Of a DNA stretch of 38,932 nt, positions 19,417 to 36,042 are shown piece by piece. The stretch lies in the IMG/VR virus record IMGVR_UViG_3300032560_000054, positions 1-38,932 of that record, one strand, 5' to 3'. The notes beneath the pieces were generated by a model. The model did no database searches. It had not been told where the DNA came from and was given only the letters and a program-made list of their open reading frames with translations. Positions within the stretch are counted from its first letter, which is position 1. Each line of letters starts with the position of its first letter. The DNA is from a virus. The translations under genes and the position numbers were made by a program.

Positions 19417-20646
19417 CTAGAGACAGGTTATCGGAAGCGTGAAGGCTTCCCCATTACTGTATCCCGTAAGCGTCTCCGGGCCGGGAGTTCCGCTGCATCC
19501 GGACGCGTTATCTATTTCGAGAGACGCATCGGCATCTCCCCACGATAAGACGATCTTCGATGGGGCGATTAAGAATCCATTACTCGGCGAGCTTCCATCG
19601 TGTCCCTGAAGCGCAGAGTTCCCGAGACTAAGCTCGCCGCCCGTTCCGTCTGATATCCCGACTCCCGAGACGCCGACAGAGTACGAGCCTCCGGAATTAT
19701 TGAGATCGTTCCCGCCTGCGCTTCCTGATCCGATCCCGTAAGTGTCGCCGTATTCATCTTGTCCATTTGTCCCGACATCGTTGCCGCTGAAGAAGGCGTT
19801 TAGAGATCCGAACTCGTTCGTAAAGACGCCTCCGCTAGAGGTGATCGAGAAGGATCCCACTGTATCAATAATCCCGGAGACGCCTGCGCTCGTTATGCTC
19901 CATCCTGTCCCGTTTTCCGTCTCTAAGGATCCGGCCGAATTAGGTGTAAGCGTTAGGAACGTCGGTAAGTCTGTATTCCCGTCGCTGAAGATGAACTGTC
20001 CCCCGGCGTCCGTTAGAAGCGGATCGCAGACGATAAGGCCGTCCGTCGTCGAGAAGCGAATGATGGAACCTGTCGCGCAAGTTGCCGCGGCGATATCGAA
20101 GGGATCCGCGGCGAGGACGGCTTCGATCTCCGCGGCCGTTGGCGCGCCTCCTCCCGATCCCGTCTGCTTCCGCCATACTCCCGGCGTCGTCGATGCGTCG
20201 CACCAATAGAAATTAGCTCCCGACTGATCGCCGGGATTGCCATAGATCCAGAAGGCATTATTCGCTCCGCAGGCGATCGTCGGCGCGCCGGATCCTACCT
20301 CGATCCGCGGGATGATCGGCGTGATATAGGGCGCAGGCGCGGCCGACTGAAGCTGCTGCGAGATATCCTGCGAGGCCGCGGCCGTGATCTGGACTTGAGT
20401 CGAGAAGATGGGGAGCGCGGATCCGGACGCAGGCTTCAGCATGAAGCTGTAAAGAGTCCGGGCCGTGAGCGTCGCCGAGAACTGGCCGGATGAATTGAGC
20501 GCGCCGGAATAGGACAGGGAGCCGAAGGCCGACGCGCTGATCGATCCGTTCGCATAGGCCGGGACTGTCCCGGATACCGTCGCCGTCTGCGCGCAGGCGC
20601 AGGCCGCGGCGAGGGCGAATACGGCCGCGATGATTGTCTTCTTCAT
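19417..20646 (-). CDS. Secreted, fibre-like protein with Sec signal peptide
   Basis: The 409-aa protein starts MKKTIIAAVFALAAACACAQ, a textbook Sec signal with a likely cleavage after ACA. The mature part has an N-terminal beta domain (25-110). A tail-fibre-type module follows near 110-170 (GAPTIACGANNAFWIYGN, then GVWRKQTG). The end is a long Gly/Ser-rich, beta-helix-like region (240-380) with repeated GSFSITS and GGSYSVG units. AGGAG precedes ATG 20646. It is third of three consecutive secreted products between tail tip and endolysin, and a strong terminator stands between it and its upstream neighbour. It may be an export-dependent adhesin, exclusion factor, or fibre assembled after lysis. 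Confidence 0.8.
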   Translation of the reverse strand: MKKTIIAAVFALAAACACAQTATVSGTVPAYANGSISASAFGSLSYSGALNSSGQFSATLTARTLYSFMLKPASGSALPIFSTQVQITAAASQDISQQLQSAAPAPYITPIIPRIEVGSGAPTIACGANNAFWIYGNPGDQSGANFYWCDASTTPGVWRKQTGSGGGAPTAAEIEAVLAADPFDIAAATCATGSIIRFSTTDGLIVCDPLLTDAGGQFIFSDGNTDLPTFLTLTPNSAGSLETENGTGWSITSAGVSGIIDTVGSFSITSSGGVFTNEFGSLNAFFSGNDVGTNGQDEYGDTYGIGSGSAGGNDLNNSGGSYSVGVSGVGISDGTGGELSLGNSALQGHDGSSPSNGFLIAPSKIVLSWGDADASLEIDNASGCSGTPGPETLTGYSNGEAFTLPITCL

Positions 20647-20671
20647 GGTGATCTCCTGTCACGTTGCAAGT

Positions 20672-20710
20672 AAAAAAAGAGCCGCGGCCCGAAGCGCAGA
20701 GCCGCGGCTT
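20672..20710 (-). terminator. Rho-independent terminator inside the late operon
   Basis: On the minus strand, AGCCGCGGC (20709-20701) and GCCGCGGCT (20688-20680) form a 9-bp stem followed by CTTTTTTT (20679-20672). It lies between the 126-aa and 409-aa secreted-protein genes and must reduce, or be bypassed for, expression of the 409-aa protein and the lysis genes. No strong promoter fits in the 25 bp that remain before the next start codon. Confidence 0.88.
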
Positions 20711-20722
20711 CAGGATAAGCGG

Positions 20723-21103
20723 TTAGCAGCCGGATCCGGCGAAGGACTTGATCGAGACGATCGAGAATACGAGCGGATTCCCCGGCGTATTGCGGCCGAT
20801 GCGAATGGCGACGGGCGTATGCGGCGCGCTCGCATTGATCGAGGCTAGCTTCTCCGTATAGAGAGTCTTCTCGGCTGACTCGAGAGCAGCCTCGCCCGGA
20901 TCTGCGGCTGCGGCCGTTGCCGCGGCCGTCCATTGTGCGGAGAGGGAGGCGTCGATCGCGGCCGGACAACCGATCCCGGATACCGTCCAAGTGATCAGCG
21001 CGGGAGCCGGAGCCGGAGCCGGAGTGGGAGTGGTAGTTTGTGCCGACGCTGCGAGCGCGAAGGCGAGGAGGCCGAGGCCGAGAGCGAGTGTGATCTTCTT
21101 CAT
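20723..21103 (-). CDS. Small secreted protein with Sec signal peptide
   Basis: The 126-aa protein begins MKKITLALGLGLLAFALAAS, with likely cleavage after ASA, and then has a Thr/Pro/Ala linker (TTTPTPAPAPAPA). The mature domain (about 38-126) is short, with two Cys (one in SGIGC, one at the C-terminal end) that could form a disulfide in the periplasm. AGGAGAAG precedes ATG 21103. It is the middle of three signal-peptide genes and is followed by a terminator. No family is recognised; it could block superinfection or modify the cell envelope. Confidence 0.75.
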   Translation of the reverse strand: MKKITLALGLGLLAFALAASAQTTTPTPAPAPAPALITWTVSGIGCPAAIDASLSAQWTAAATAAAADPGEAALESAEKTLYTEKLASINASAPHTPVAIRIGRNTPGNPLVFSIVSIKSFAGSGC

Positions 21104-21154
21104 GGTGTCTTCTCCTGTATGCTGCGGTTTGATTTTACTGCTGAAGTCTCTTGT

Positions 21155-22081
21155 TTAAGGCGTGTAACTTTCAACGTGGAATCCGGAGGCGTCGATCCAG
21201 AAGTGTTTATTCGTATCGGCGTCGTAAAAGTTGATCCCCGTATAGCTGATCCCGAAGTAATCGTTCGGCGTCTGAGCGTCGAAGATGATCGTCCCTGTCG
21301 CCGTCGAGACTGCGAAGCCGCTGTTACCGTCGTCCCCCTGAACGTTGATCCCGGCCGAGTTGATCGCGAAGCTCCCTCCCCCTCCGTCCGTCTCCTGAAT
21401 GAACGAGGCGACGACCTGCATCTCGCCCGACGTTATGGGATCGACGATATCGACCGTCTGCCCGGAGATCGTGACGTTCGGAGCCGGGAGCCGTTGCCAG
21501 TTTGTGAGATGCACATAGGGAACGGGAGCCGTCGGCGTCGTCGCGTCGTAGTATGTCGAGCCGTCTGCGGCCGGGAATGCAGGCGCGCCCATCCCGGTAT
21601 ACAGTCCGATCGGGTACGCCGGGACTGCGGATCCCCGAGCATTGATCCATCCGAGACGCCCGTTCGACGGCGCGCAGTACCATGTCGAATTAGGCGTAAC
21701 GTCCGTCTCCGTCCCCGTCGCCGTATTCGCGCAGGCTGTATAAGGGAATCCGTAGAAGGAGAACGTCTGTCCGGCCTGAATGACGATCGTATCGTAATCG
21801 AATCCCGTCGAATAGACGACGACGTTCGACAGGCTCCATAGAGTAGAGCCTGCGCCGTTCTTCATCGTTACCGTATACGTCCCCGTTGCCGGGACAGTCG
21901 CCGCAGGATCGATCGCGCCATTCGTCACGGCGAGGGCCGTAAGGTTGAAGTTCAGCGTCCCCGATACGAGAGGTTGTCCTGTCGTCGGATCGATAACCTT
22001 CGTCGCGTGTACGGCGACAGTTGCGAAGGCCGGGGATGCGAGCGCGAGCAGAAGGGCGAGCGCGAGGAATGTCTTCTTCAT
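21155..22081 (-). CDS. Secreted, fibre-like protein with Sec signal peptide
   Basis: The 308-aa protein begins MKKTFLALALLLALASPAFA, a clear Sec signal (cleavage after AFA). The mature part starts with a beta domain (VIDPTTGQPLVSGTLNFNLT). It then has a tail-fibre module near 168-200 (GMGAPAFPAADGSTYYDATT, then YVHLTNWQRL), and a C-terminal beta-helix-like part with repeated GGSFAIN/GNSGFAV/NDYFGIS units. AAGGAG precedes ATG 22081, 11 bp after the tail tip gene. The position is that of a tail fibre, but the signal peptide would send it to the periplasm. Confidence 0.8.
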   Translation of the reverse strand: MKKTFLALALLLALASPAFATVAVHATKVIDPTTGQPLVSGTLNFNLTALAVTNGAIDPAATVPATGTYTVTMKNGAGSTLWSLSNVVVYSTGFDYDTIVIQAGQTFSFYGFPYTACANTATGTETDVTPNSTWYCAPSNGRLGWINARGSAVPAYPIGLYTGMGAPAFPAADGSTYYDATTPTAPVPYVHLTNWQRLPAPNVTISGQTVDIVDPITSGEMQVVASFIQETDGGGGSFAINSAGINVQGDDGNSGFAVSTATGTIIFDAQTPNDYFGISYTGINFYDADTNKHFWIDASGFHVESYTP

Positions 22082-22091
22082 GGACTTCTCC

Positions 22092-25000
22092 TTAAGGGTT
22101 TGTAATTGCGAGGTACGAGATCTCCGCGTCGAGCGTGACTCCCGAGGCGACGATCACAGAAGGAACGGAGACGCCGACGGTAAGGACGACGTTCGAGAAG
22201 TCTGTCCCGGCCGGGACAGTTCCCGTCGCCGTTCCCGAGTACGATCCGTCCGGCTGCTTCTCTGTAAGGAGCGTCGTCGAGGTTGCGCCTCCGTCCGTCG
22301 AGAGCGAGATCGAGAGCGTCCCTTCCGTCGCCGGGCCGGACGTCCCGCTTACTGTGACGTTCCACGGAATATGAATCGTCGAATCCGTCCCGAAGGAGAC
22401 GGAGCCGAATCCGGCGTAATTGATAACGGCCGTATTGTGAGCATAGATCGCGGCGACGGATAGCTCGGCCGAGCCGCTCGTCGGCGTATACGGCCCCGTC
22501 GGATTAGTTATCGTGAAGTTCCCGCTCGTCGTATTCGACGTCGGCGCATACGTCGGGACGGAATGCGCGGCCGGAGTCGTCGTCGATCCGATCGCCACAT
22601 AATCCGGGTTTGACTGATCGGCCTTCCATTGTCCGGCGTCCGTGTAGAGAACGAGCGAGGCCGTCGAGACGCGGTAATTCACGCCGTACCATGTCGAGCA
22701 GTCCTTCGGAGAGTACGATGTCGCCGGGACGACGACGATCGCTCCGTTCGCGAGCGAGGCCGTACCGTTGTCCGTGAGCGATCCCCCGGCGAGATAGACG
22801 TTCACCGTACAGTCTGTCGCGTCGAGGTTCAGGCTGCTCGAGACTGTCATATTCGCAGTCCCGAGAGGCGCGTTAAGCGTGATCGGATACGCCGTCACAT
22901 CGGCAAGTGATTGCTCCTCGAGGCCGTACAGGTTCCGAGAAGTGAACTTGAAGTAAACCGTCTTCCCGAGCAGCGAGGCGTCGAAGGTGTATTTCAGTAC
23001 GCTCTCGTCGAGCCGGATGAACGTCTCGCCGGGCGTATGATTCGCGATTGGCGTCGAGAAGAAGCCGCGGCGAAGATACGAGAGGTTGTAGGAGTTTGTC
23101 GTCCCGGTCGATCCCGTAAGCGTCGCCGTCGCGAAGGCGATCAATTCGTTCCCGATCAGTGAGAGCGTACCTCCGGCGTCTGCATTCGCGTCCGTCGTAC
23201 TCGCGAGCGTCCCGGTCGTCGTAATCGAGGGCGAGTCCGTCGTATCCGGATCCGGGCCTGCGGGAAGGAAGGCCGTTAGCGTCCCGGCGCGCGCTCTCCC
23301 GGTGAAGCCTCCCGGCGTGATACAGGAGTAATCTGTACCGTCGAGCGAAATCCATGCGTTACAGCCTCCCCATTGATCGCCTCCTGTAAGCGCGAGCCAT
23401 AGCTGATAATTGCCTCCCGTTACGCGCTGCGTCGGGAGATAGTGAGCGAGGAGGCTCGTCGCGCCGGGGAGGTTATGCGCGCCGGACTGATTCCCCGCAT
23501 TCGTACCCTTCGGATAGACGTATCCCTGCGCGACTCCGAAGAGGAAGTCTTCGGCGACGATCTTCAGGGAATAATCGTCCTGCTCCTCGACGCTTACGAC
23601 TCGGACGGCGCGATTCGTCGCGCCTGCGATCTTCGGATTCAATACGATTATGTCCATCGGCTCGAGTTCGAAGGCCCACCATTTAAGCGAGAACTCGTAC
23701 TCCCGGAGCGGGACTGCATTCCTCTTGAGGAGCATATTCGCCGCGGCCGAGGCGTACTCCTTCACCTTGAAATGATGCGCCGTAATTGTCTTCGACGGGA
23801 GCAGGCCGTTCATTAAGATCGAGGCTTCGTCGGACTCCCGGATGATATCGATATTGTAATTATCGTCGCGCATCTCGTACTCGAACTCGAGACGGTTATA
23901 GTTATCGGCGAGATCCCGCCACCGCACCTTAACAGGCTCCTCGCCCTTCTTTGATACGAAGTCCGAGTAATCGTACTCGGCGATCGGCTTCGTCGCCGGG
24001 ATGTACGTACGGCCGTTCGCGACGGCCGTCGTATCGCCGTACGGGACGATCTTCAGCGCGTCGCCGCTCCATACAGCCTCCGCATTCGTTAGATCGCAGA
24101 TCTCCTTTATGACTTCCGTCGCCTTCTTCTGACCATCGAAGAAGGGAGAGATCAGGAGATTATTCGCTACGCAGAAGTTCGAGTATCCCGTAACGTCGCC
24201 GAGATATTGCCAGTTGAAGCCGTCGATCGCATCGGCGCAGAGCGCGGCGATCACGGCCGCGGGATCGCAGTCGGCGATCCCTCCCCCGAGGGCGAGTCCC
24301 TTCGCGTTAAGGACTTCGATCGTAAGGTTCGGGGGAGCCGCGCTCGTCCCGAGATCGAAGTTCGAGGCGACGACGCGCGCGAGGCCGTTGTATTGCAGAG
24401 CGCGCTCCGGATGCTTCGATACCATATACGACCACGGGAACTGAGGCCGCGTCCCGTTGATTACGGAGAGGGCGTACTTCGTCGCCGGGGAGATCTCGCT
24501 ATCCGTCGCATGATTCTGATCGTATGCGTACGTTATCGATACGACGAGTCCATGATCGGCCGCGGCGAACTCGTACACGCCGGGAGCCGTAATGCGATAT
24601 TGCTTCGACGTCGGGACAGTCGCAACCTTCTGCATGGGAGCGTCCTGCGTCCCGGTGATCGTAATCGGGCCGTCGGATCCGAAGTCGTCGGCGAACTGCG
24701 TATAAGACGCCTCGTACGTAACTCCCTCGTCATAGAAGAAGGCCGAGGCATTCCCGACAGTGTAGGAGCCTCCGTACAGGGGAATCGTATACGTCTCCGT
24801 CGTCCCGACGAGTGAACTCCCGCCTCCGGCGTCGTAGATATTCCCGATCCCGGCGATCGGCCCGGCGCAGAGAAGGGCGTCGATCGCCGCGTAATATTCG
24901 TAACTCGTAACCGTCGCGCCTCCCTTGCCTCCCTCATTCTGAGTATTGGCGACGTAATAAAAATCGACGTAATCGAGGAGCTTGATCGGAGCCTTAAAAG

Positions 25001-25106
25001 TCCCGGCTCCCCACGGTATGACGACGCCGCGCTCGCTGGTCTGAATCTGGATCGAGCCGAGGACGTTCGGCTGCTTCGCGCGCGATCCAAGTCCGAGGAA
25101 TGCCAT
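22092..25106 (-). CDS. Tail tip / central hub protein (J-like), host recognition
   Basis: The 1004-aa protein forms the tip of the tail and contacts the receptor. The N-terminus is typical of J/TipJ proteins (GSIQIQTSERGVVIPWGAG, then YYAAIDALLCAGPIAGIGNI). An inserted beta domain occurs at about 105-196 and is also found in the tube and connector proteins. The middle (about 310-560) matches the phage-tail_3/GTA g15 hub (KATEVIKEICDLTNAEAVWS, then YNRLEFEYEMRDDNYNIDII). Residues 560-1004 are fibronectin/beta-rich and probably bind the receptor. AGGAG precedes ATG 25106. It follows the NlpC/P60 gene, as in gene transfer agents. Confidence 0.9.
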   Translation of the reverse strand: MAFLGLGSRAKQPNVLGSIQIQTSERGVVIPWGAGTFKAPIKLLDYVDFYYVANTQNEGGKGGATVTSYEYYAAIDALLCAGPIAGIGNIYDAGGGSSLVGTTETYTIPLYGGSYTVGNASAFFYDEGVTYEASYTQFADDFGSDGPITITGTQDAPMQKVATVPTSKQYRITAPGVYEFAAADHGLVVSITYAYDQNHATDSEISPATKYALSVINGTRPQFPWSYMVSKHPERALQYNGLARVVASNFDLGTSAAPPNLTIEVLNAKGLALGGGIADCDPAAVIAALCADAIDGFNWQYLGDVTGYSNFCVANNLLISPFFDGQKKATEVIKEICDLTNAEAVWSGDALKIVPYGDTTAVANGRTYIPATKPIAEYDYSDFVSKKGEEPVKVRWRDLADNYNRLEFEYEMRDDNYNIDIIRESDEASILMNGLLPSKTITAHHFKVKEYASAAANMLLKRNAVPLREYEFSLKWWAFELEPMDIIVLNPKIAGATNRAVRVVSVEEQDDYSLKIVAEDFLFGVAQGYVYPKGTNAGNQSGAHNLPGATSLLAHYLPTQRVTGGNYQLWLALTGGDQWGGCNAWISLDGTDYSCITPGGFTGRARAGTLTAFLPAGPDPDTTDSPSITTTGTLASTTDANADAGGTLSLIGNELIAFATATLTGSTGTTNSYNLSYLRRGFFSTPIANHTPGETFIRLDESVLKYTFDASLLGKTVYFKFTSRNLYGLEEQSLADVTAYPITLNAPLGTANMTVSSSLNLDATDCTVNVYLAGGSLTDNGTASLANGAIVVVPATSYSPKDCSTWYGVNYRVSTASLVLYTDAGQWKADQSNPDYVAIGSTTTPAAHSVPTYAPTSNTTSGNFTITNPTGPYTPTSGSAELSVAAIYAHNTAVINYAGFGSVSFGTDSTIHIPWNVTVSGTSGPATEGTLSISLSTDGGATSTTLLTEKQPDGSYSGTATGTVPAGTDFSNVVLTVGVSVPSVIVASGVTLDAEISYLAITNP

Positions 25107-25116
25107 ACGCAGACTC

Positions 25117-25551
25117 CTATCCGGGGAAAGAGAAGAACTTATGCTCGGCCCGGTCGAGCAGAGCGCAGCGATCGGCGCGATCCCGGATTACTCCATGCCT
25201 GATTACCGCGTGAAGGACTTCCGGCCATGCGAGGACGATCGCGCCATGCGCGAAGGGACGTCCCGGCTTCGTACGGTAGAGCGCGAAGTCGCCCGGCTGC
25301 GGCTCCTGTACCTCGACGGCCCCGAGCTTCAGGACGCATTCGAGGAAGATCTCCTCCGGCTGATTAACCCACCACTGGAAGGCGTACGCCGGGATCTCGA
25401 GAGCCGGGAGCGGGAGAACCTTCCGATAGACCTCTAAGGCCCATAGAGCGCAGTCGGCTCCGCAGCCGATCAGGGCCGCGCGATGGTGATAGGGCGTCCC
25501 CTCCCATCGCTTCGCCTCCTCGAGTACCGCTGCGCGCTGCGTATCGTTCAT
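25117..25551 (-). CDS. NlpC/P60 tail peptidase
   Basis: The 144-aa protein is an NlpC/P60-family peptidase, probably a tail-borne cell-wall hydrolase or assembly factor (GTA g14, lambda K type). GCGADCALWA places the catalytic Cys at residue 34, AHGAIVLAW the catalytic His at 102, and a further His at 114 lies in VLHAVIRHG. AAGGAG stands before ATG 25551. The size equals the minimal domain. It is encoded between the membrane-anchored protein and the tail tip hub. Confidence 0.9.
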   Translation of the reverse strand: MNDTQRAAVLEEAKRWEGTPYHHRAALIGCGADCALWALEVYRKVLPLPALEIPAYAFQWWVNQPEEIFLECVLKLGAVEVQEPQPGDFALYRTKPGRPFAHGAIVLAWPEVLHAVIRHGVIRDRADRCALLDRAEHKFFSFPG

Positions 25552-26262: not shown

Positions 26263-27108
26263 TTAGTAAAGAACTGTCGGATCCGGGACGAATGGCTCGC
26301 CGTAGAAGTTCGCCTGATTCGAGAACTTCGAAGTACAAGTCGCGAGCGTCTTATCGCAGCCGGGGGAGATCTTGAACGAGTCGCCGATCGACGGAGGGAC
26401 GAGGAACGGATAGGCCGGATAGATTGTCGAGCCGACGTTCTCCTTCACGTAATACGAGATCCCGGCGAGCTTCCCGCTGGTAAACGTAATGATCCCCTGC
26501 GCGAAGTATCCCGTCGCCTGCGCAAGAGCCGTCCGGAGCGTATTCACCGTCGAGACGCCGGATACCGTTCCCGGCGTGAGATACGCGGCCCTCGAGAGCG
26601 AGCATCCCGTATCGAAGAGGACGTTCTTACAGTCCGTCTGGACTGTATTCCTCGGGAAGTCGTTATCGAGGATATTCATCATCGATTTAACCGTGATCTT
26701 CGCGTAACTGCGGCCGATCTCGTCGATCGAGGATACCTGTCCGGCGAAGCGAGTTACGGGCGTCGTCCACGGCGAGGACGCATCGGCCGCGAGGATCCGC
26801 TGCATCGTGTAAATGGCGAGGTTGAAATATCCGAGCAGGATCATCTCGATAAATGCGCCGTCGGCTTCCGAGATCTTCAGTTGATGCGAATCGACGGAGA
26901 CTCCCCTCGAGAGCTTTACCCGCCCGGGAGTGATCTTCAGCGCGCTCGCCTGATAGGCCGTCGTCCCGACGGTTATACTCTTCCGCGCATCCGTGAAGCG
27001 GTATGTCTTACCATTTACAAGCTCGAACGTATAGAGGTTCGCCATGAAGACACTCTTCGACCGCGCCTCGATCAAAGCTGATACATCGGAGGGTAAGGGA
27101 ATCGCCAT
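26263..27108 (-). CDS. Tail hub protein, BR0599/DUF2163 family (gpL-like)
   Basis: The 281-aa protein matches the phage BR0599 / DUF2163 family that forms the ring below the tail tube (GTA g13, gpL of lambda). The N-terminus (YTFELVNGKTYRFTD and ITPGRVKLSRG) is typical. Four Cys, C160 and C169 in TDCKNVLFDTGCS, and C251 and C258 in GCDKTLATC, are the ligands of the iron-sulfur cluster known for gpL. AGG-containing sequence precedes ATG 27108. Its order after the DUF2460 gene equals that of GTA baseplates. Confidence 0.9.
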   Translation of the reverse strand: MAIPLPSDVSALIEARSKSVFMANLYTFELVNGKTYRFTDARKSITVGTTAYQASALKITPGRVKLSRGVSVDSHQLKISEADGAFIEMILLGYFNLAIYTMQRILAADASSPWTTPVTRFAGQVSSIDEIGRSYAKITVKSMMNILDNDFPRNTVQTDCKNVLFDTGCSLSRAAYLTPGTVSGVSTVNTLRTALAQATGYFAQGIITFTSGKLAGISYYVKENVGSTIYPAYPFLVPPSIGDSFKISPGCDKTLATCTSKFSNQANFYGEPFVPDPTVLY

Positions 27109-27124: not shown

Positions 27125-28642
27125 TTAGAGCGTCGTCGTCTGAAGAGCTTCGATATCGGGAGCCGAGAGAGCGCGTCCGAAGGCGATCACGGTCGAGATA
27201 TTCCCGGCGAAGAAGGAAGCAGATCCCCCGGCCTCGGCTCCGATGGTGAGAGCGGCCGAGCTTCCAACGGCTCCGGCCGTGAGCGTCGCCGTCGCCACCT
27301 GTATGCCGTCGATCCAGAGCGTGACGACCGTCCCGGCCCGGATCAGGATCACGCGATGCCAGTTCGCATCGGTAAGCAGTCCCCCGGCCGCTGTGACGCT
27401 CGCCGAGCCGTTGTTTATGAATCCCGCGGCCGTCGTCGCCGACGCCGGAATCGAGCATTCGTACCCTGTCCCCCCGGACGTACTCTTCGAGAAGAGATCG
27501 CGCGCCGATCCGCTCGATCCGGCCGCGGCCGTCTTCACCATCGCGACGAGCGAGAAGTCCCCGGCGAAGTCGAGGGCCGCGTTATCGGCCGCGGCGAGGA
27601 AGCCTGTCGCGCCGTCGAACGAGGCGAGCGCGATCGTCGAGAGGCCCGGCTGATTCGCCGTCGTCGCCTGCGTCGCATCCCCGGCCGTCTGCGTCTGATC
27701 GTAGAGCGTGACAAGCGAGAGCGCGGATCCCCCGATCGCTCCGGCGAAGTTCGCGAGGGCGACGGAATCGGCCGCTCCCGTCGCATCCGGGTAAATGTCC
27801 TGAACGGCCCCGTCCGACGCCCGGCGCGCGCGCAGGAGCGGCCCGGTATACCCGGACAGGAGAAGCCGCGTCGAATAGCAGCCGACGCCTCCGGGAATGA
27901 CGTCGAGAGGCGTCGTCGAATAATCGTCGTACGCATCCTCGACGCGAACCTGAAGCAGCTTCAGGGAGTTCCGTTGATAGATCTGGAAGAGGAATTGATC
28001 GAACTCCTCCTCGTCCTCGACGAAGCGTACGCGGTACATCCATTCGAAGGAGGCCGTAATCAGGACGCCGATCGCCGGGGGAGTAAGGAACTGGATCACG
28101 CCGCTCGAGGACAGGCTGAAGGCCGTTGTCTCGACGCCGTTAAGGAATACGTGCATCGTCCCCGGCGTGACGTTCTGAACTTCGTCGTAATACGCGCCGA
28201 CAGTCCGGATCGTCTGGAAGTCCAGCGTCGCGCCGTCGCCCGTCCCGATTGTCCCGGCCGTAACAACACCCTCGTTCGATCGCTTCGTAATGATGGACGG
28301 AGAGAGAAGGAAGCTCTTCAGCTTGCCGGAGCAGGCGCAGAAGAGCGCGACGATCTGCTGAAGCTGCGTATATCCCGTCTCCGGCGAGATCCCGGCTTCG
28401 GCCGCTTCGAGATAGTCCCGGATGTACCCGAAGGAGATTTCAAACTGCCAGAGCGGGAAGGGATCGAGCGAGACGCGAGCCTCGCCCCTGTCCGGCCCGG
28501 TCTGTACGACGGTCGAGAACTGCGCCGTTGTCTTTATGTCCATCGAAATACCCGGAAGGGCCGGGAAGATGTAATCGGATCCGCTTGTCGGGATTCCTCC
28601 GGGGACGATCGTTCCGGCGAGGCTCGAAGGTGTAGAGGCCAT
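27125..28642 (-). CDS. DUF2460 distal tail protein fused to arabinofuranosidase-like and LamG-like domains
   Basis: The 505-aa protein has three parts. Residues 1-235 are a DUF2460 (GTA g12, distal tail) domain, including FEISFGYIRDYLEAAEAG and the RVRFVEDEEEFDQFLFQIYQ ending. Residues 245-345 resemble the N-terminal catalytic-type domain of alpha-L-arabinofuranosidase B (GCYSTRLLLSGYTGPLLRAR, then SLVTLYDQT). Residues 347-505 look like a LamG/concanavalin-type lectin (FSLVAMVKTAAAGSSGSARD, ending in IEALQTTTL). GAGG precedes ATG 28642. The lectin-type part suggests carbohydrate binding at the tail tip. Active-site residues of a true arabinofuranosidase are not confirmed. Confidence 0.88.
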   Translation of the reverse strand: MASTPSSLAGTIVPGGIPTSGSDYIFPALPGISMDIKTTAQFSTVVQTGPDRGEARVSLDPFPLWQFEISFGYIRDYLEAAEAGISPETGYTQLQQIVALFCACSGKLKSFLLSPSIITKRSNEGVVTAGTIGTGDGATLDFQTIRTVGAYYDEVQNVTPGTMHVFLNGVETTAFSLSSSGVIQFLTPPAIGVLITASFEWMYRVRFVEDEEEFDQFLFQIYQRNSLKLLQVRVEDAYDDYSTTPLDVIPGGVGCYSTRLLLSGYTGPLLRARRASDGAVQDIYPDATGAADSVALANFAGAIGGSALSLVTLYDQTQTAGDATQATTANQPGLSTIALASFDGATGFLAAADNAALDFAGDFSLVAMVKTAAAGSSGSARDLFSKSTSGGTGYECSIPASATTAAGFINNGSASVTAAGGLLTDANWHRVILIRAGTVVTLWIDGIQVATATLTAGAVGSSAALTIGAEAGGSASFFAGNISTVIAFGRALSAPDIEALQTTTL

Positions 28643-28645
28643 GAT

Positions 28646-31249
28646 TTAGATCCTCCCGTCGCGTTGAAGGCTCGCGATCTTATACGCGAGACTGTCTTCG
28701 TGTCTGTCGAGCAGCGCGGCGAAGTCCTCGCCGGAGCCGTTGATCGTATTCCCGCCGAACTGATTCGTAATCGTATTCCCGGCCGTCATTTTGCGAATAT
28801 GCCCGGCGAGATCCGAGGGAAGTACCATCTCGTTTTTATGCAGATTCGTAAGTGTATTGTCGGCCGGGACTGCGGCCCATCCTCCCTCGGCCGATGCAAT
28901 GGAACCGATTCCGAGAGTCGTCGCGATCATCGCTGCGCCTGCTTCCGGAGCGAGAGCCGGGCCGACGATGGGGATCGCGGCCGTCGAAGCCGTCGCCGCG
29001 GCTCCAGCGACTCCGGCGAGCGAAGCCACCTGCGCGGTATTCGTCATCGCGGTTACGGCGAGCGTCGTCCCTCGGGCCGAAGCCTGAATCGATGCGAGCG
29101 TCGCCTCGGCCGCGGCCTTCTGCGCTATCTCCTGCGCGTGACTCTGAATGTGGAGCAGGTTTACGAGGACGTAATGCTGCGCGCGCTTCGTTAGCTGCTG
29201 CATTAAGGAGGCTTCGAGATCCATTACCTGACGGAGCAGCATCCGGGAGAAGTCCTTCGCGATATTCGCGTCGCCCTTCGTCCAATCCTGCACCATCGTC
29301 GTAATCCCGGCTCCCACCTGCGCCGTATATTTATCGAAGAGCTTCGCGCGCTCCTGCGTCCCCTTCGACGCGATCTGCGTCAATGCGTCTTGATGCTTCT
29401 GCTCGAGGAGTTGGATTTGATTGTCCGTCCGGGCGACTTCCTCGGCTCCGTTCGGATCCAATGCCTGTAAAGCGCGCAGCCGTTGAAGGGATGCGAGGCG
29501 CATCTGATAGATCGTATTCTCCGTCTGCGTATCGACCGCGGCCTTCTCTCGCCCGGTTAGAACGTGATCGGCGACTTCCTGCCTCGACGCCTCCTGCTCG
29601 GCGCGGAGCATCTCCTCGGCCTTCGAGGACGTCCCCATCTCGCGATCTTCCGCAGGCTTCCGCGCTCGAGCGTCGGCCTCGGCCTTCGCCTTCGCGATCT
29701 CGGCCTGCGCCGCGGCGACTTCCCTTGTCGCCCTCGCGACGTCGCCCTGCGCCTTCATCGCCTCCCTGCTCGTCGGCCCGTATGCGGCCGCGATAGAAGC
29801 GGCGATCTGCTGATAGAAACCGATGATCTGCTCGGATCCCTTGTCCTGCTCCTCAATCTCTTCATGGATCGCGGCGATTGTAGTGTCGAGAGCTTGCTTA
29901 TCGGCCGCATTCCGCGCGGCGAGATACTTCCCGTTGATCTCATGCCGTTCCTGTGCGCCGAGTGTATCCGTGTCGAGGATGTTCTTCCAGTATGCAGCGT
30001 CCTCGGCCGCGCTCTGCTGATAGAAGGCTCCCTCCTCGAGCTTCCGCTCCGTAAGAGCGTCCTCGAATCCGCGAAGCTGCGCGGCCGACGCCTGCTTCTC
30101 GGCCTCCGTCTGCGCGCGAGCGGCCTCCTTCGCCTCGCGAGCCTTCCGCTTCTGATCCTCGACGTCCCGCTTCGCCTGATCGTCCTTTCCCTTCCGCTCT
30201 TCCAGTCCGGCGACTTTGATCGCTAGATTCTGGCGATCGAGAGCGTCCTGAAGCTGCGCCGTCGCGCCTTCAATATTGGCGATCTTCGCCGCGTTACGAG
30301 TCGCGTCGGCCGAGTCTGCTCCTTCGTATGCGGCCGAGGAGTCCTGCTCGTCCTTCAGACGCTTCGCTTCGCGCTTGTACGCCTCGATCTGCGTCTGGAA
30401 GGCTGCGGAGATCGCCCGATCGCGCGCCTCGCCTGCGGCCTTGATTGCGGCCGGATCCGAGGTATTGGCGACGGCATGATCGAAGTCCTGCTTCGCCTTT
30501 ACGACGGAGGCGATTAAGTTCTTCTGATCCTGCTCGAGTTCCTTCTTCTGCTGACCTGTCGCCTCGACGCCGGACAGGACGGACGCGAAGGCCGAGATAT
30601 CGTGCTTCTGAAGAAGCTCGTCGAGAGCCTTCCCGTCCTCCTCGAGCGATACGAGGAGTTGATCGGCCATCTTCCGAGATTCGTCGAGGGCGAGGGCGAC
30701 GCCGTTATCCGGGACGCCTTCGAGCTTGTCGATCTCCTGCTGAAGCCGATCGCTCTGAATGCGGAGATCGTCGTTTACGACCGTCGCCTTAAGGTGCATC
30801 GAATCGAAGGCCGCGGCGATATCCGTCCCGGCTGTGTGTGCATTATGGACGAGCGTATAGAGCTTCTCGCTCATCTTCCCGAGCATCTCGGCGAAGATCA
30901 GTCCTCCGATAACCGGGAAGGCCGCTTGTAGGATCGGCCCCATCCCGAGGACGTTTACGGAGAATCGTTCGATCGCGCGGATCGGGATCCCGCCCTCGAG
31001 GGTACGGAAGGCCGCGCCTGCGGCCTGAACTTCCGAGACGGCGTGACGATGCGAGACGGCCACCATCTCCGCGGAAGCGGCGAGTCCCTTCTCGGCGACG
31101 GACGTCGCCTCGGCTGCGCTCGTCACGTTCCGGAATCCCGCAGCCATCTCCGCGGTACTCTGCGCCGTCACGTTCGCGGCCGCAGGCATTCCCTGAATGA
31201 TGCCCGAGAGATCTATCCGCGCGCCGATCTCGAGAAGTTGATCGCTCAT
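28646..31249 (-). CDS. Tape measure protein
   Basis: The 867-aa protein sets tail length and is ejected with the DNA. It has coiled-coil-rich sequence (about 140-500 and 530-700), a hydrophobic segment near 105-125 (ILQAAFPVIGGLIFAEMLG), and a Gly/Ala-rich membrane-like end near 790-825. At the usual 0.15 nm per residue the tail would be about 130 nm long. Its start lies 10 bp beyond the end of the frameshifted chaperone, the canonical G-GT-H order. GGAG precedes ATG 31249. Confidence 0.95.
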   Translation of the reverse strand: MSDQLLEIGARIDLSGIIQGMPAAANVTAQSTAEMAAGFRNVTSAAEATSVAEKGLAASAEMVAVSHRHAVSEVQAAGAAFRTLEGGIPIRAIERFSVNVLGMGPILQAAFPVIGGLIFAEMLGKMSEKLYTLVHNAHTAGTDIAAAFDSMHLKATVVNDDLRIQSDRLQQEIDKLEGVPDNGVALALDESRKMADQLLVSLEEDGKALDELLQKHDISAFASVLSGVEATGQQKKELEQDQKNLIASVVKAKQDFDHAVANTSDPAAIKAAGEARDRAISAAFQTQIEAYKREAKRLKDEQDSSAAYEGADSADATRNAAKIANIEGATAQLQDALDRQNLAIKVAGLEERKGKDDQAKRDVEDQKRKAREAKEAARAQTEAEKQASAAQLRGFEDALTERKLEEGAFYQQSAAEDAAYWKNILDTDTLGAQERHEINGKYLAARNAADKQALDTTIAAIHEEIEEQDKGSEQIIGFYQQIAASIAAAYGPTSREAMKAQGDVARATREVAAAQAEIAKAKAEADARARKPAEDREMGTSSKAEEMLRAEQEASRQEVADHVLTGREKAAVDTQTENTIYQMRLASLQRLRALQALDPNGAEEVARTDNQIQLLEQKHQDALTQIASKGTQERAKLFDKYTAQVGAGITTMVQDWTKGDANIAKDFSRMLLRQVMDLEASLMQQLTKRAQHYVLVNLLHIQSHAQEIAQKAAAEATLASIQASARGTTLAVTAMTNTAQVASLAGVAGAAATASTAAIPIVGPALAPEAGAAMIATTLGIGSIASAEGGWAAVPADNTLTNLHKNEMVLPSDLAGHIRKMTAGNTITNQFGGNTINGSGEDFAALLDRHEDSLAYKIASLQRDGRI

Positions 31250-31921: not shown

Positions 31922-32698
31922 TTACGAGCCGAGCGGTGAGACTGCCTCGTACGACTCGAAGACGCGGCCGAGTGGATCCGCGAGAATGGTGAAGTCCATC
32001 TCCGGAACCATGAAATCGTCGTTTTTCGTCTGCATCGCGAGCTTCTTCGCCTTCACGCGGAAGAACTTCATATTTGACTGAAGTCCCCCGAATGCGTTGT
32101 AGAGGAAGAGGGAGAAGAAGGGCGTCGTCCCGATAAGCTGCTGATTCCGGGAGTACGTCGTCCCCGAAGTCGCCGTCGTCGTCCGATAGTAGTAACGGAG
32201 AATCAGGGCCGCGCCAGAGTCGGCCGCTGCGAAGGTATACACGCCGTTCGAGACAGTGTACTGTCCCTGAGCAGGAGTACCCGTTCCGATGTTCTGAAGG
32301 GGCGTACCCGTCGCCGCATAGGAGACGGAGAGATCCGTCGCCGAGTTCGCGAGGATGCCTGTCCCGCTCGCATACGTCGCCGTCACCGTGTACGGCGAGG
32401 AAGCGGGAACGGACTGCGCCTCGTTAAGCTGAAGCATCATCATCCCGGCCGAGGGCGTCCCGCCGTAATACAGCGCGTTGAAGAGTCCACCCGAGACGAG
32501 GCCGAACTTCGCCTTTACGGACGCCTTCGAGCGGCCGTTCGCGGCGATATCGGGGAAGTCGTTCGAGCCGTACAGCATCTTCTCGTCGCTCTCAAAGTCT
32601 ACCGAAGCGTCTTGAAGAGTGCCGAACGTGAAGGCCGGGCCGCTCCCGCTGAGAGGAGTTGCGAAGAGGAGTCCGGATCCGAAGCGAAAGTTTGCCAT
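31922..32698 (-). CDS. Major tail tube protein with inserted beta domain
   Basis: The 258-aa product is the most likely tail tube subunit: it lies directly before the chaperones and has the mixed tube-type N-terminus (TFGTLQDASVDFESDEKMLY, then SKASVKAKFGLVSGG) and C-terminus (KFFRVKAKKLAMQTKND). Residues 97-172 are an insertion (PYTVTATYASGTGILANSA, then YTVSNGVYTFAAADSGAA) of a beta-rich domain shared with the connector and the tail tip protein. It is probably displayed on the tail surface. GGAGAA precedes ATG 32698. Confidence 0.88.
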   Translation of the reverse strand: MANFRFGSGLLFATPLSGSGPAFTFGTLQDASVDFESDEKMLYGSNDFPDIAANGRSKASVKAKFGLVSGGLFNALYYGGTPSAGMMMLQLNEAQSVPASSPYTVTATYASGTGILANSATDLSVSYAATGTPLQNIGTGTPAQGQYTVSNGVYTFAAADSGAALILRYYYRTTTATSGTTYSRNQQLIGTTPFFSLFLYNAFGGLQSNMKFFRVKAKKLAMQTKNDDFMVPEMDFTILADPLGRVFESYEAVSPLGS

Positions 32699-33662: not shown

Positions 33663-34481
33663 CTAGTTCCCCCGGAACTGCGCGATCGTCTTATATGTCG
33701 CGATGATCGGCCGCACCATCGGAGGGACGTCGGCCTGCGAGAATGTGACCGTCTCCGTCCCGAGATGCGCGCTCACCTGATCGATCCGCGGGTACTTCGC
33801 CTTCTTAAAGGCGACGATCTGAGCGATCGCGTCCTGTATGTCGAACGGGATCGCCGAATAGTTGTACGAGATCAGGACGGCGACGCCTGCCTGCGCCGCG
33901 TTGAAGGTGTAGACTCCCACGCTCGAGACGGCGTACTGCATCGGCCCCGGCGCGCCTGTCGTCGGCGTAAGAGGCGTCCCATTGGCGAGCGTGACGCCGA
34001 GATCCGAATAGAAGAATTGTCCCTGCGCGGCCGTGAGCGTGTACGGCCCCGGCGAAGCGGGTACAGTGAGCGGATCCGTCTGCGTCGCGCCATATCCCGC
34101 GATGTAGTTGATCAGGACGTTCGCCCGGCCGCAGTTGAAGCGAGGCCCGATCAGCCGGACGGAGAAGCCGTTATCGGGGAGATAGTATCCGGGCGTCGTA
34201 TTCACGCCGAGCGCGGCCGGAACGATGGGGATCCCGTCGATCTTCAGGGAGAGCAGGGAATAGATCGGGGAGTAACGGAGAATGATCGAATCGCTTCCGT
34301 CGCCGTCGCGCGTCTCGAGGAATGTCGCGAGTCCGATCGTCCGGCGATTCGTCGCCGACAGGAAGAATCGCGAAGCGGCCGAGATCAGGTTCGCGAGCAT
34401 CGTATCGCCCGTCGTCGCCGTGATCGAGAGCGCGCTTTTACAGTACGAGAGGGAGATCAGATCGGAGGCCGGAGGCTGCAT
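33663..34481 (-). CDS. Head-tail connector (gp6-like) with inserted beta domain
   Basis: The 272-aa protein has the gp6-like connector fold split in two: residues 1-135 (LISLSYCKSALSITATTGDT, then LLSLKIDGIPIVP) and 210-272 (IPFDIQDAIAQIVAFKKAKY). Between them residues 140-209 hold the same inserted domain as the tail tube (PYTLTAAQGQFFYSDLGVTL, then YAVSSVGVYTFNAAQAGVAV). A gp6-type protein forms the ring under the portal. GAAAGG precedes ATG 34481, and a hairpin separates it from the capsid gene. Confidence 0.85.
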   Translation of the reverse strand: MQPPASDLISLSYCKSALSITATTGDTMLANLISAASRFFLSATNRRTIGLATFLETRDGDGSDSIILRYSPIYSLLSLKIDGIPIVPAALGVNTTPGYYLPDNGFSVRLIGPRFNCGRANVLINYIAGYGATQTDPLTVPASPGPYTLTAAQGQFFYSDLGVTLANGTPLTPTTGAPGPMQYAVSSVGVYTFNAAQAGVAVLISYNYSAIPFDIQDAIAQIVAFKKAKYPRIDQVSAHLGTETVTFSQADVPPMVRPIIATYKTIAQFRGN

Positions 34482-34584: not shown

Positions 34585-36042
34585 TTAACCGTTCGCGATG
34601 TTGTCGAGGACGCCGAGCGCGAAGGGAGTGTAAACCTGCATCAGACCGTCGAAATAGACGCCCGTCTGCCGATTCATTGTCACCTGCGGCCAGAGTACTT
34701 GCCAGTAATCGCGGCGACAGAGCTTCCGACGCGCGCCGGGGATGTTCGACAGGGGATACGGGATCGCATCGCAGTCGAAGAAGAGCTTCCCGGCCGGGAG
34801 GTTCGGATGAACCTTCAGGGGAATCTCCGTCGCGCCGTTGGGGGCGAACTTGTTCAGGTACGCCGTCACATACGAGCCTGCGAGCAGCTTCCCTTGTCCA
34901 CCTTCCATCGTATCGAAGCGAATGATTCCGGCTCCGGATCCGCCTGCGCCCTGAAGCGTCTTCTTCGTTATGTCCCATGCCTGCTGCGGATTGCACCAGA
35001 TCGCCGTTGGCGTCACCTTGCGGGTAACGTAGAAGCCGAGCAGGAAGGCGTCGATCTCTACGACTCCACCTGCGCCGTCGGCCGTGAGCGTCGCGCCGTC
35101 GAGGGACGTATACGCGCCGTTATTCGCGGCCTGCGTAACGAGTCCATCGTAAGCGAGAGGATTCGCCGAGTAGTCTGTCGCGGCGAGCGCGCTCGAGAGT
35201 TGCGTCCCGGCTGCATCGGTCGTCTGTTTGAAGACGTTGATCGATGTGACCGCGGCGAACGTGTACGGCCCCGCAGACGGCCCGGTAAACCATGCGTAAC
35301 CGAAGGCTCCCTTCTTCGCGGCCGTTGTCCACGTGACGGAGAGATTCCCGCCTGCGGTTGTCACGGCCCCGGAAGCAGCCGAGACGATGCTCGAGCCTGC
35401 GTTTACGGTTGTCGTCGAGCCGTCGCCGTTCGTCCGGGCGACGGTCTGTACGACCTGTCCGGCTGCGACTGCGCGAGTGTACCCGTCGAGAGTGAGCGCG
35501 ACGCATACGGCCTTCGTCGCCTGCGCCGTCATTGAGCCACCTGCGACAAGGGATCCGGCCGGAGTCGAGGCCGTCCCGAGTGCGAAGGACTGATTCCCGC
35601 CGAGATCGAGGAACTCTTCCGCGATCATCGTCGAGCGGATCAGATTGTCGGCTGCGATTGCGAGGGCGTTGTCGAATCCCTCCGCAGCCATGATCGCCTG
35701 CTCCGTCACGTAGTTCTCGAGGCCGATCGTCGCGAAGTTCTCCGAAAAATCGACTTCGGTCTGGTCGATGTACCCGCCGCGCTTGCCTTCCTGAAGCGTC
35801 GGGGACGTCATACCGGGATTGATCGCCGTGATCGCCTTCCACTTCACGCCCGAGTCGCCGCGATTGCTAACGGCGCGCGGGATGGAGTTACGCAGGGGCG
35901 TGATAACCGGGTAAAGAACCTTTGCGAGAGGTTCGAGGTTGTAATTGATGATCCCCGTCGATTGCGAGATGCCCGTCGTATTGGCCTTTGTGACCATCTG
36001 ACGCGCGCGCTCGATCGCGGCTTTGAAGTTGAGTTCTGGCAT
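34585..36042 (-). CDS. Major capsid protein, HK97 fold, with Ig-like insertion
   Basis: The 485-aa protein forms the icosahedral shell. The N-terminus is an arm and scaffold-like helix. The centre has the classical set: VSNRGDSGVKWKAITAINPG, EVDFSENFATIGLENYVTEQ, and the VTRKVTPTAIWCNPQQAWDI loop. Residues about 160-280 (TNGDGSTTTVNAGSSIVSAA and GGNLSVTWTTAAKK) are a Gly/Ser/Thr-rich Ig-like insertion that is probably exposed on the capsid surface. GAAAGGGG precedes ATG 36042. It follows the protease-scaffold gene, as in HK97-type phages. Confidence 0.92.
   Translation of the reverse strand: MPELNFKAAIERARQMVTKANTTGISQSTGIINYNLEPLAKVLYPVITPLRNSIPRAVSNRGDSGVKWKAITAINPGMTSPTLQEGKRGGYIDQTEVDFSENFATIGLENYVTEQAIMAAEGFDNALAIAADNLIRSTMIAEEFLDLGGNQSFALGTASTPAGSLVAGGSMTAQATKAVCVALTLDGYTRAVAAGQVVQTVARTNGDGSTTTVNAGSSIVSAASGAVTTAGGNLSVTWTTAAKKGAFGYAWFTGPSAGPYTFAAVTSINVFKQTTDAAGTQLSSALAATDYSANPLAYDGLVTQAANNGAYTSLDGATLTADGAGGVVEIDAFLLGFYVTRKVTPTAIWCNPQQAWDITKKTLQGAGGSGAGIIRFDTMEGGQGKLLAGSYVTAYLNKFAPNGATEIPLKVHPNLPAGKLFFDCDAIPYPLSNIPGARRKLCRRDYWQVLWPQVTMNRQTGVYFDGLMQVYTPFALGVLDNIANG

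Follow-up and report, generated by a model that had tools for sequence, protein, structure and literature searches.

The tail gene cluster and its three domain copies

The window, by which we mean the whole stretch of DNA analysed, comprises the 38,932 bases of a virus record, with its tail genes clustered on the minus strand. In the order of transcription, the cluster begins with a probable capsid gene (34585-36042; phrog_13692, unknown function) and continues with a gp6-like head-tail connector of 272 amino acids (33663-34481; PF05135, Phage_connect_1, 1.6e-4; phrog_442, 5e-19), small neck genes, the major tail tube protein of 258 amino acids (31922-32698), the tape measure (28646-31249), a DUF2460 protein (27125-28642), a baseplate hub of the phiJL001 Gp84_N/BR0599 type (26263-27108), a small gene that would be an endopeptidase by position (25117-25551), and the tail tip/hub protein P0001 of 1004 amino acids (22092-25106; PF13550, Phage-tail_3, 7e-22; PF23666, Rcc01698_C, 9e-14; phrog_1101, 3e-71), all on the minus strand. 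The tube protein matches phrog_8234 (1e-44), a family of unknown function, and was identified as a tail tube by structure search (Foldseek/VIA), which related it to the solved tubes of SPR, YSD1, Chi, and JBD30.

Three of these proteins carry copies of one beta-domain. The tip copy lies at 24519-24794 on the minus strand (residues 105-196) and consists of a core of 70 positions plus an additional hairpin about 20 residues long; its signature strand pair, YRITAPGVYEFAAADHGLVV, is encoded at 24540-24599 (minus strand, residues about 170-189). The tube copy, with the motif QYTVSNGVYTFAAADSG, occupies 32171-32413 (minus strand, residues about 96-176), and the connector copy, with the motif QYAVSSVGVYTFNAAQAG, occupies 33855-34067 (minus strand, residues about 139-209). 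The initial annotation had named these three motifs and a preceding SYT or PYT strand in each protein, and all of them are present as described. The homologous block exceeds the motif, spanning about 70 profile positions and reaching 90 residues in the tip because of the extra hairpin, and its shared consensus reads (S/T)-V/I-P..PYTVT....F..DLGV...G.PL..V...P..GQY.V..GVYTFAAAD.G..V.I.Y.Y (dots for variable positions).

Homology of the three segments, likewise proposed at the outset, was established by several searches. Apart from the tube, a tblastn search of the window with the tube domain hit just two places, one in the connector (4e-8) and one in the tip (2.6e-6), and phrog_8234 matched, besides the tube, the connector (2e-10) and the tip (4e-8). 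Profiles built from a single class of host protein in other phages (tube, connector, or tip) found the other two window classes at 5e-11 or better: a tube-only profile excluding the window detected the window connector at 3.7e-21 and the tip at 1.5e-11, while the corresponding connector-only profile detected the tube at 1.6e-19 and the tip at 5e-11. Among the 377 open frames of the window, these profiles gave no noteworthy match beyond the three proteins. The real tip scored 39 bits as compared to 8 bits for the best of 1000 shuffled tips, and hhalign comparisons among the tube, connector, and tip domain profiles gave probabilities of 99.6-99.8%. Across classes the copies are about 30-50% identical, and the conserved positions common to all classes are mostly aromatic, glycine, valine, or alanine, as is typical of core-forming residues. 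As had been claimed, the hosts belong to three families without relation to one another: the tip is of the Phage-tail_3/Rcc01698 type, the tube has solved tube relatives, and the connector belongs to Phage_connect_1.

The DUF2460 and hub proteins of the window are without the mobile domain, unlike the DUF2460 proteins of the Brevundimonas phages Polewnik and Strzyga and hubs of the BR0599 class in other phages. At its C-terminus the window DUF2460 protein bears a Laminin_G_3 (ConA-like) domain, and its residues 257-333 match ArabFuran-catal; a class that hosts the mobile domain elsewhere thus holds a different accessory binding domain here. Downstream of the tip, three successive genes at 19417-22081 (minus strand) encode proteins of 409, 126, and 308 amino acids, each with an apparent Sec signal peptide at its N-terminus (MKKTIIAAVFALAAACACAQ, MKKITLALGLGLLAFALAASAQ, and MKKTFLALALLLALASPAFA, respectively), which is odd at the tail-fibre position of a phage; these proteins had no match in Pfam or PHROGs.

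Spread of the domain and evidence for insertion

Copies in virion proteins of other phages, a search for which the initial annotation had suggested, proved numerous. Single-protein searches of the viral collection with the tube and the connector returned no relative, and alignments were too diverse for pattern scans, whereas a degenerate DNA pattern succeeded; together with one genome-contig scan and phage records, this pattern on viral contigs yielded 189 phage and prophage loci with 242 copies in 236 open frames. After masking of the domain, the host proteins of these frames fell into seven clusters, which were named by Pfam and PHROGs as tube (168), connector (48), tip (12), DUF2460 (4), BR0599/Gp84_N hub (2), a phrog_8150-family protein at the place of the tail terminator (1), and a DUF3383/phrog_205 contractile tail sheath (1), the sheath and terminator-like cases being single records. 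The sheath (L039, 5642-7486, minus strand) carries one copy and is the sole myophage case seen; no fibre or capsid protein was seen as a host among the copies found. Whole-record searches added copies in tubes, tips, and one further hub, and 23 of the 30 phage records searched whole held two to three copies each. Copies in tube, connector, and tip occur together at four loci including the window, and Polewnik and Strzyga carry three copies each, in the connector, the tube, and the DUF2460 protein, with none in the tip. Tandem or multiple copies were observed inside one tube (L175, 224-1318, from an archaeal bin) and inside tips (L182, 4661-6325; L079, 3-1223).

Relatives without the domain were found in every class but the single sheath case. 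In the enlarged set, the exact block was missing from nine of 290 tubes (two of these nine being intact), 103 of 179 connectors, and 80 of 98 tips, leaving 281, 76, and 18 with it, and the ratios with and without the domain were 5 to 139 for DUF2460 proteins, 2 to 119 for hubs, and 1 to 224 for terminator-like proteins; the counts without are upper bounds, two seemingly empty tips (L132 and L149) holding diverged copies, and the figures are not population frequencies, since the loci were mostly found via the domain motif. The tube sample was checked by a pattern restricted to the flanks, run on viral contigs in place of a search for domainless tubes in about 650 bacterial genomes that yielded too few prophages. 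Seven tubes without the domain from new loci were mostly cut by contig ends, while two short tubes, L280 (159 residues) and L203 (155 residues), are intact. Close pairs delimit the insert well: tubes L277 and L280 differ by an 82-residue insert, with 57-59% identity on either flank, and tip L187 is about 62% identical to L121 and L177 on both flanks of a clean insert of about 90 residues, located in the ...IPYGD...TFTPN.TP.Y loop.

Projected on the domain-free tip L006, the tip copies follow residue 108 (the window and six others), residue 137 (L188, and L079 with two in tandem), residues about 181-208 (L080, L115, and L035), or residue about 270 (L187, L142, L163, and L051). At least four different tip loops thus hold the domain, and a single ancestral insertion followed by losses cannot account for this. 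Taken together, the unrelated hosts, the empty relatives, the number of tip loops, the tandem copies, and the four further host classes indicate an inserted mobile domain and not a core element of these proteins, in agreement with the mobility first proposed. A second kind of insert was seen in the same tip family, where the tip of L010 (6926-10600, plus strand) carries an intein-like (Hint) insertion in a glycine-rich KGGGG loop (CVAGETLVAMPGGAKRIDQLAPGD ... HNFFAEGVLLHNG).

An unrooted connector tree, computed with the domain left out, requires at least ten changes between presence and absence, at least five of them forced by supported branches, and the closest supported neighbour of the window connector is empty. 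The domain tree (119 copies, 77 columns), which is poorly resolved and unrooted, shows 15 changes of host class, and copies tend to cluster by host class. Two copies in one phage resemble each other no more than copies from different phages do (p 0.075), and spread within one genome must therefore be old or rare. A recent duplication inside the window was rejected, the longest DNA shared between its copies being 10 bases, and was also disfavoured by its tube and connector copies being no more alike than random pairs. From the clustering by class and the lack of likeness within phages, the usual history, as read from sequence comparison, would be an insertion made long ago, passed on together with its gene and reassorted between phages, rather than a fresh duplication inside one genome.

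Predicted fold, structural matches, and database status

The AlphaFold2 model of the tube (78 sequences) has a mean pLDDT of 87.8, rising to about 97 over residues 121-170, and places the insert after a helix at residues 70-78, with strands at 86-96, 104-106, 121-127, 146-150, 153-156, and 164-173. The tip copy modelled alone (residues 97-206) reached a pLDDT of 91.6 and a pTM of 0.78, with a strand, a short strand, a long strand, a further strand, a strand pair, a short helix, and a last strand in that order. The two confident models have the same strand order, as expected from the common fold postulated initially, and the tip copy and the tube copy are each predicted to fold independently; since the alignment used for the tip copy includes copies of other classes, its model tests the fold of the family and not that of the tip by itself.

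Over residues 1-257, including the insert, the tube model aligns to 8YGM, 8XKN, 6XGR, and 8RK3, and comparison to the solved tubes of SPR, Chi, YSD1, and JBD30 gave Z scores of 12.5-14.3 over 207-239 residues. The highest of these was obtained with the SPR tail tube protein (226 residues at 4.1 A, Z 14.3), and the full-length VIA scores for the YSD1/Chi tubes (6XGR, 8VHX) were 12.5 to 13.2. These tubes hold a beta-domain between the same tube core elements, and the inserts of the JBD30 and SPR tubes (8RK3, 8YGM, 8XKN) occupy the same place in the tube as the mobile domain. Domain 2 of YSD1 has been described as a beta-sandwich latch with a DE-variant Ig-like fold, which wraps adjacent subunits, burying 950 square angstroms, and as distinctive of Chi relatives rather than shared with other virion proteins (PMC7385642), while residues 88-175 of the JBD30 tube form a decoration domain that protrudes tangentially (PMC11445458). 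The comparison thus supports an outward-facing insertion of the tube domain, at the position of the extra domain seen by cryo-EM in other phages. The initial annotation had spoken of a decoration domain on all three proteins; this is supported by position in the tube, where the domain lies at the site of YSD1 domain 2 and of the decoration domain in JBD30, and is extended to the connector, the tip, and other hosts by inference only.

An hmmsearch found no sequence match to the mobile domain among solved PDB chains, the YSD1/Chi tubes included, and an hhalign comparison of the domain profile to the tube of JBD18 (JBD30-type, single sequence) detected no homology (0.8%). A Foldseek search with the domain gave no close match among solved structures, none having an E-value below 0.001, and a search of BFVD returned two phage proteins without a useful name. 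The domain-only model best resembles the beta-domains of neck adaptor and stopper proteins (T5/DT57C, 812, KHP30, and crAss001; Z 7.7-8.4), including the T5/DT57C neck (Z 8.4, 71 residues at 2.6 A) and the phage 812 stopper (Z 8.2, 68 residues at 1.6 A); these matches, which span 67-80 residues with Z scores as high as 8.4 and mostly 1.5-2.6 A, are just at a level where chance arrangements are common. The GTA neck (Z 5.8) was also among the best fold matches of the isolated domain, and domain 2 of the YSD1/Chi tubes (Z 5.8 to 6.2; YSD1, Z 5.8) and the YSD1 and SPR inserts (Z 5.0-5.8) scored below the best adaptor beta-domains. In contrast to the mobile domain, which is an extra insert, the adaptor/stopper beta-domain is the connector's own core.

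The domain has no family in Pfam; a search of Pfam-A with 87 copies matched no Ig family at an E-value of 0.01 and gave weak DUF11 matches for nine copies (best 0.002). PHROGs covers the domain essentially only via its tube family phrog_8234, which matches 86 of the 87 copies (tip copy, 3e-8); that family describes the whole tube, and the domain is neither delimited nor named in it. No paper on the domain across these virion classes was found in the open-licence literature searched.

A mobile domain of virion proteins and its possible roles

We conclude, with a probability of roughly 85%, that the segment is a compact all-beta mobile insertion module of 70-90 residues in virion proteins of tailed phages. 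Promiscuous Ig-like domains have reportedly been known on phages since Fraser et al. 2006. They are exchanged between unrelated virion proteins of five classes, including fibres, baseplate, tube, capsid, and Hoc, are in many cases dispensable for assembly, and have been proposed to bind carbohydrates (PMC9022992). Like them, the present domain is an accessory beta-domain with empty relatives in several unrelated virion classes, here seven. Unlike them, it is one sequence family across neck, tube, tip, hub, and sheath, lies inside loops rather than at C-termini, and matches no Ig family of Pfam (Big_1, Big_2, I-set, or FN3). The carbohydrate-binding modules of 936 lactococcal phages similarly place one kind of module on several virion proteins, namely the neck, the major tail (tube) protein, and Dit, and their binding to host cells has been shown (PMC6669499); in contrast to the mobile domain, they are of CBM type with tested binding. 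Additional domains on phage tail sheaths (PMC9230969) and domain shuffling in general (PMC10684548) are also known. The domain is thus a new family of a known phenomenon, promiscuous accessory virion domains, and the open-licence literature searched gave no report of its having spread as an internal insert through seven classes of virion protein.

Two explanations do without mobility. A short beta sequence rich in T, V, A, and G might mimic the motif by chance, but this is refuted by cross-class E-values down to 4e-21, by shuffled sequences reaching at most 8 of the 39 bits, and by the restriction of matches to three proteins. Descent of all copies from an ancient beta-fold common to neck and tail proteins would agree with the resemblance of the domain-only model to the T5/DT57C neck and the 812 stopper and with a weak, only suggestive profile resemblance to the native DUF2460 hairpin (E 0.0013; reversed control 0.15). 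However, copies about 30-50% identical across classes and empty sites in close relatives speak against such descent, as does the lack of profile similarity between the insert and the connector's own beta-domain (hhalign E at least 0.1, no better than with the reversed control), for which reason the latter was rejected as a source of the domain; we consider the ancient-fold explanation, already disfavoured, very improbable. A further proposal, that the domain descends from a neck-adaptor beta-domain, colonised the whole tail, and now touches its counterparts in neighbouring rings, from the connector through the first and last tube rings to the tip, to form a continuous girdle from head to tip, seems unlikely.

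As for function, the domain may act only as a latch, packing on neighbouring subunits as a staple in each class with no outward role, or its main selective reason may be adhesion, whereby weak binding of host surface glycans or proteins would gain avidity from hundreds of tube copies together with those of neck and tip, any exposed loop being sufficient. Near-fixation in tubes and a tube position equal to that of YSD1 domain 2 (PMC7385642) favour a putative latch, yet a latch would need a matched partner surface, which is difficult to reconcile with hosts of seven unrelated classes and with more than one loop in use within a single host, and the JBD30 counterpart protrudes tangentially (PMC11445458). 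We regard a purely latching domain as plausible, if short of an even chance. Putative adhesion, which we hold a little more tentatively, fits the optional presence of the domain in many unrelated positions and has precedents in the Ig-like domains, with their proposed carbohydrate binding, and in the 936-phage modules (PMC6669499). On the other hand, a domain present in 281 of 290 tubes is unlike a dispensable adhesin, its conserved positions are core-building and common to all classes, and no binding-module family was matched.

For the mobile module itself, we propose that it moves by recombination between phages and would be kept because it folds by itself and has ends suited to a loop. By analogy to its position in the tube, the domain would sit outside the rings, as an outward clip on ring-forming proteins that packs against the neighbouring subunit and so may stiffen tube, neck, and tip, like the YSD1 latch. 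From its near-fixation in tubes and the YSD1 precedent, we infer that its first role would be to clamp neighbouring subunits in a non-contractile tail; in a second role, its exposed face might be displayed outward and attach weakly to the cell surface. In the connector, the tip, the hub, and one sheath the domain is optional, as expected for an add-on, and this, set beside its near-fixation in tubes, suggests that it is established in the tube and may have spread from there to other virion proteins.

For promiscuous phage domains such as the Ig-like ones, the mobile domain offers natural pairs with and without it by which their role can be probed. Such pairs, for example the tips at 62% identity, also address how a domain enters tightly packed virion proteins. 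With three copies apiece in the isolated Brevundimonas phages Polewnik and Strzyga, the domain is testable at the bench. One sequence family, not represented in Pfam, recurs in neck, tube, tip, hub, terminator-like, and sheath proteins, and relatives with an empty site are plentiful; phages thus appear to possess a surface module that can be clipped on and passes from one virion gene to another.
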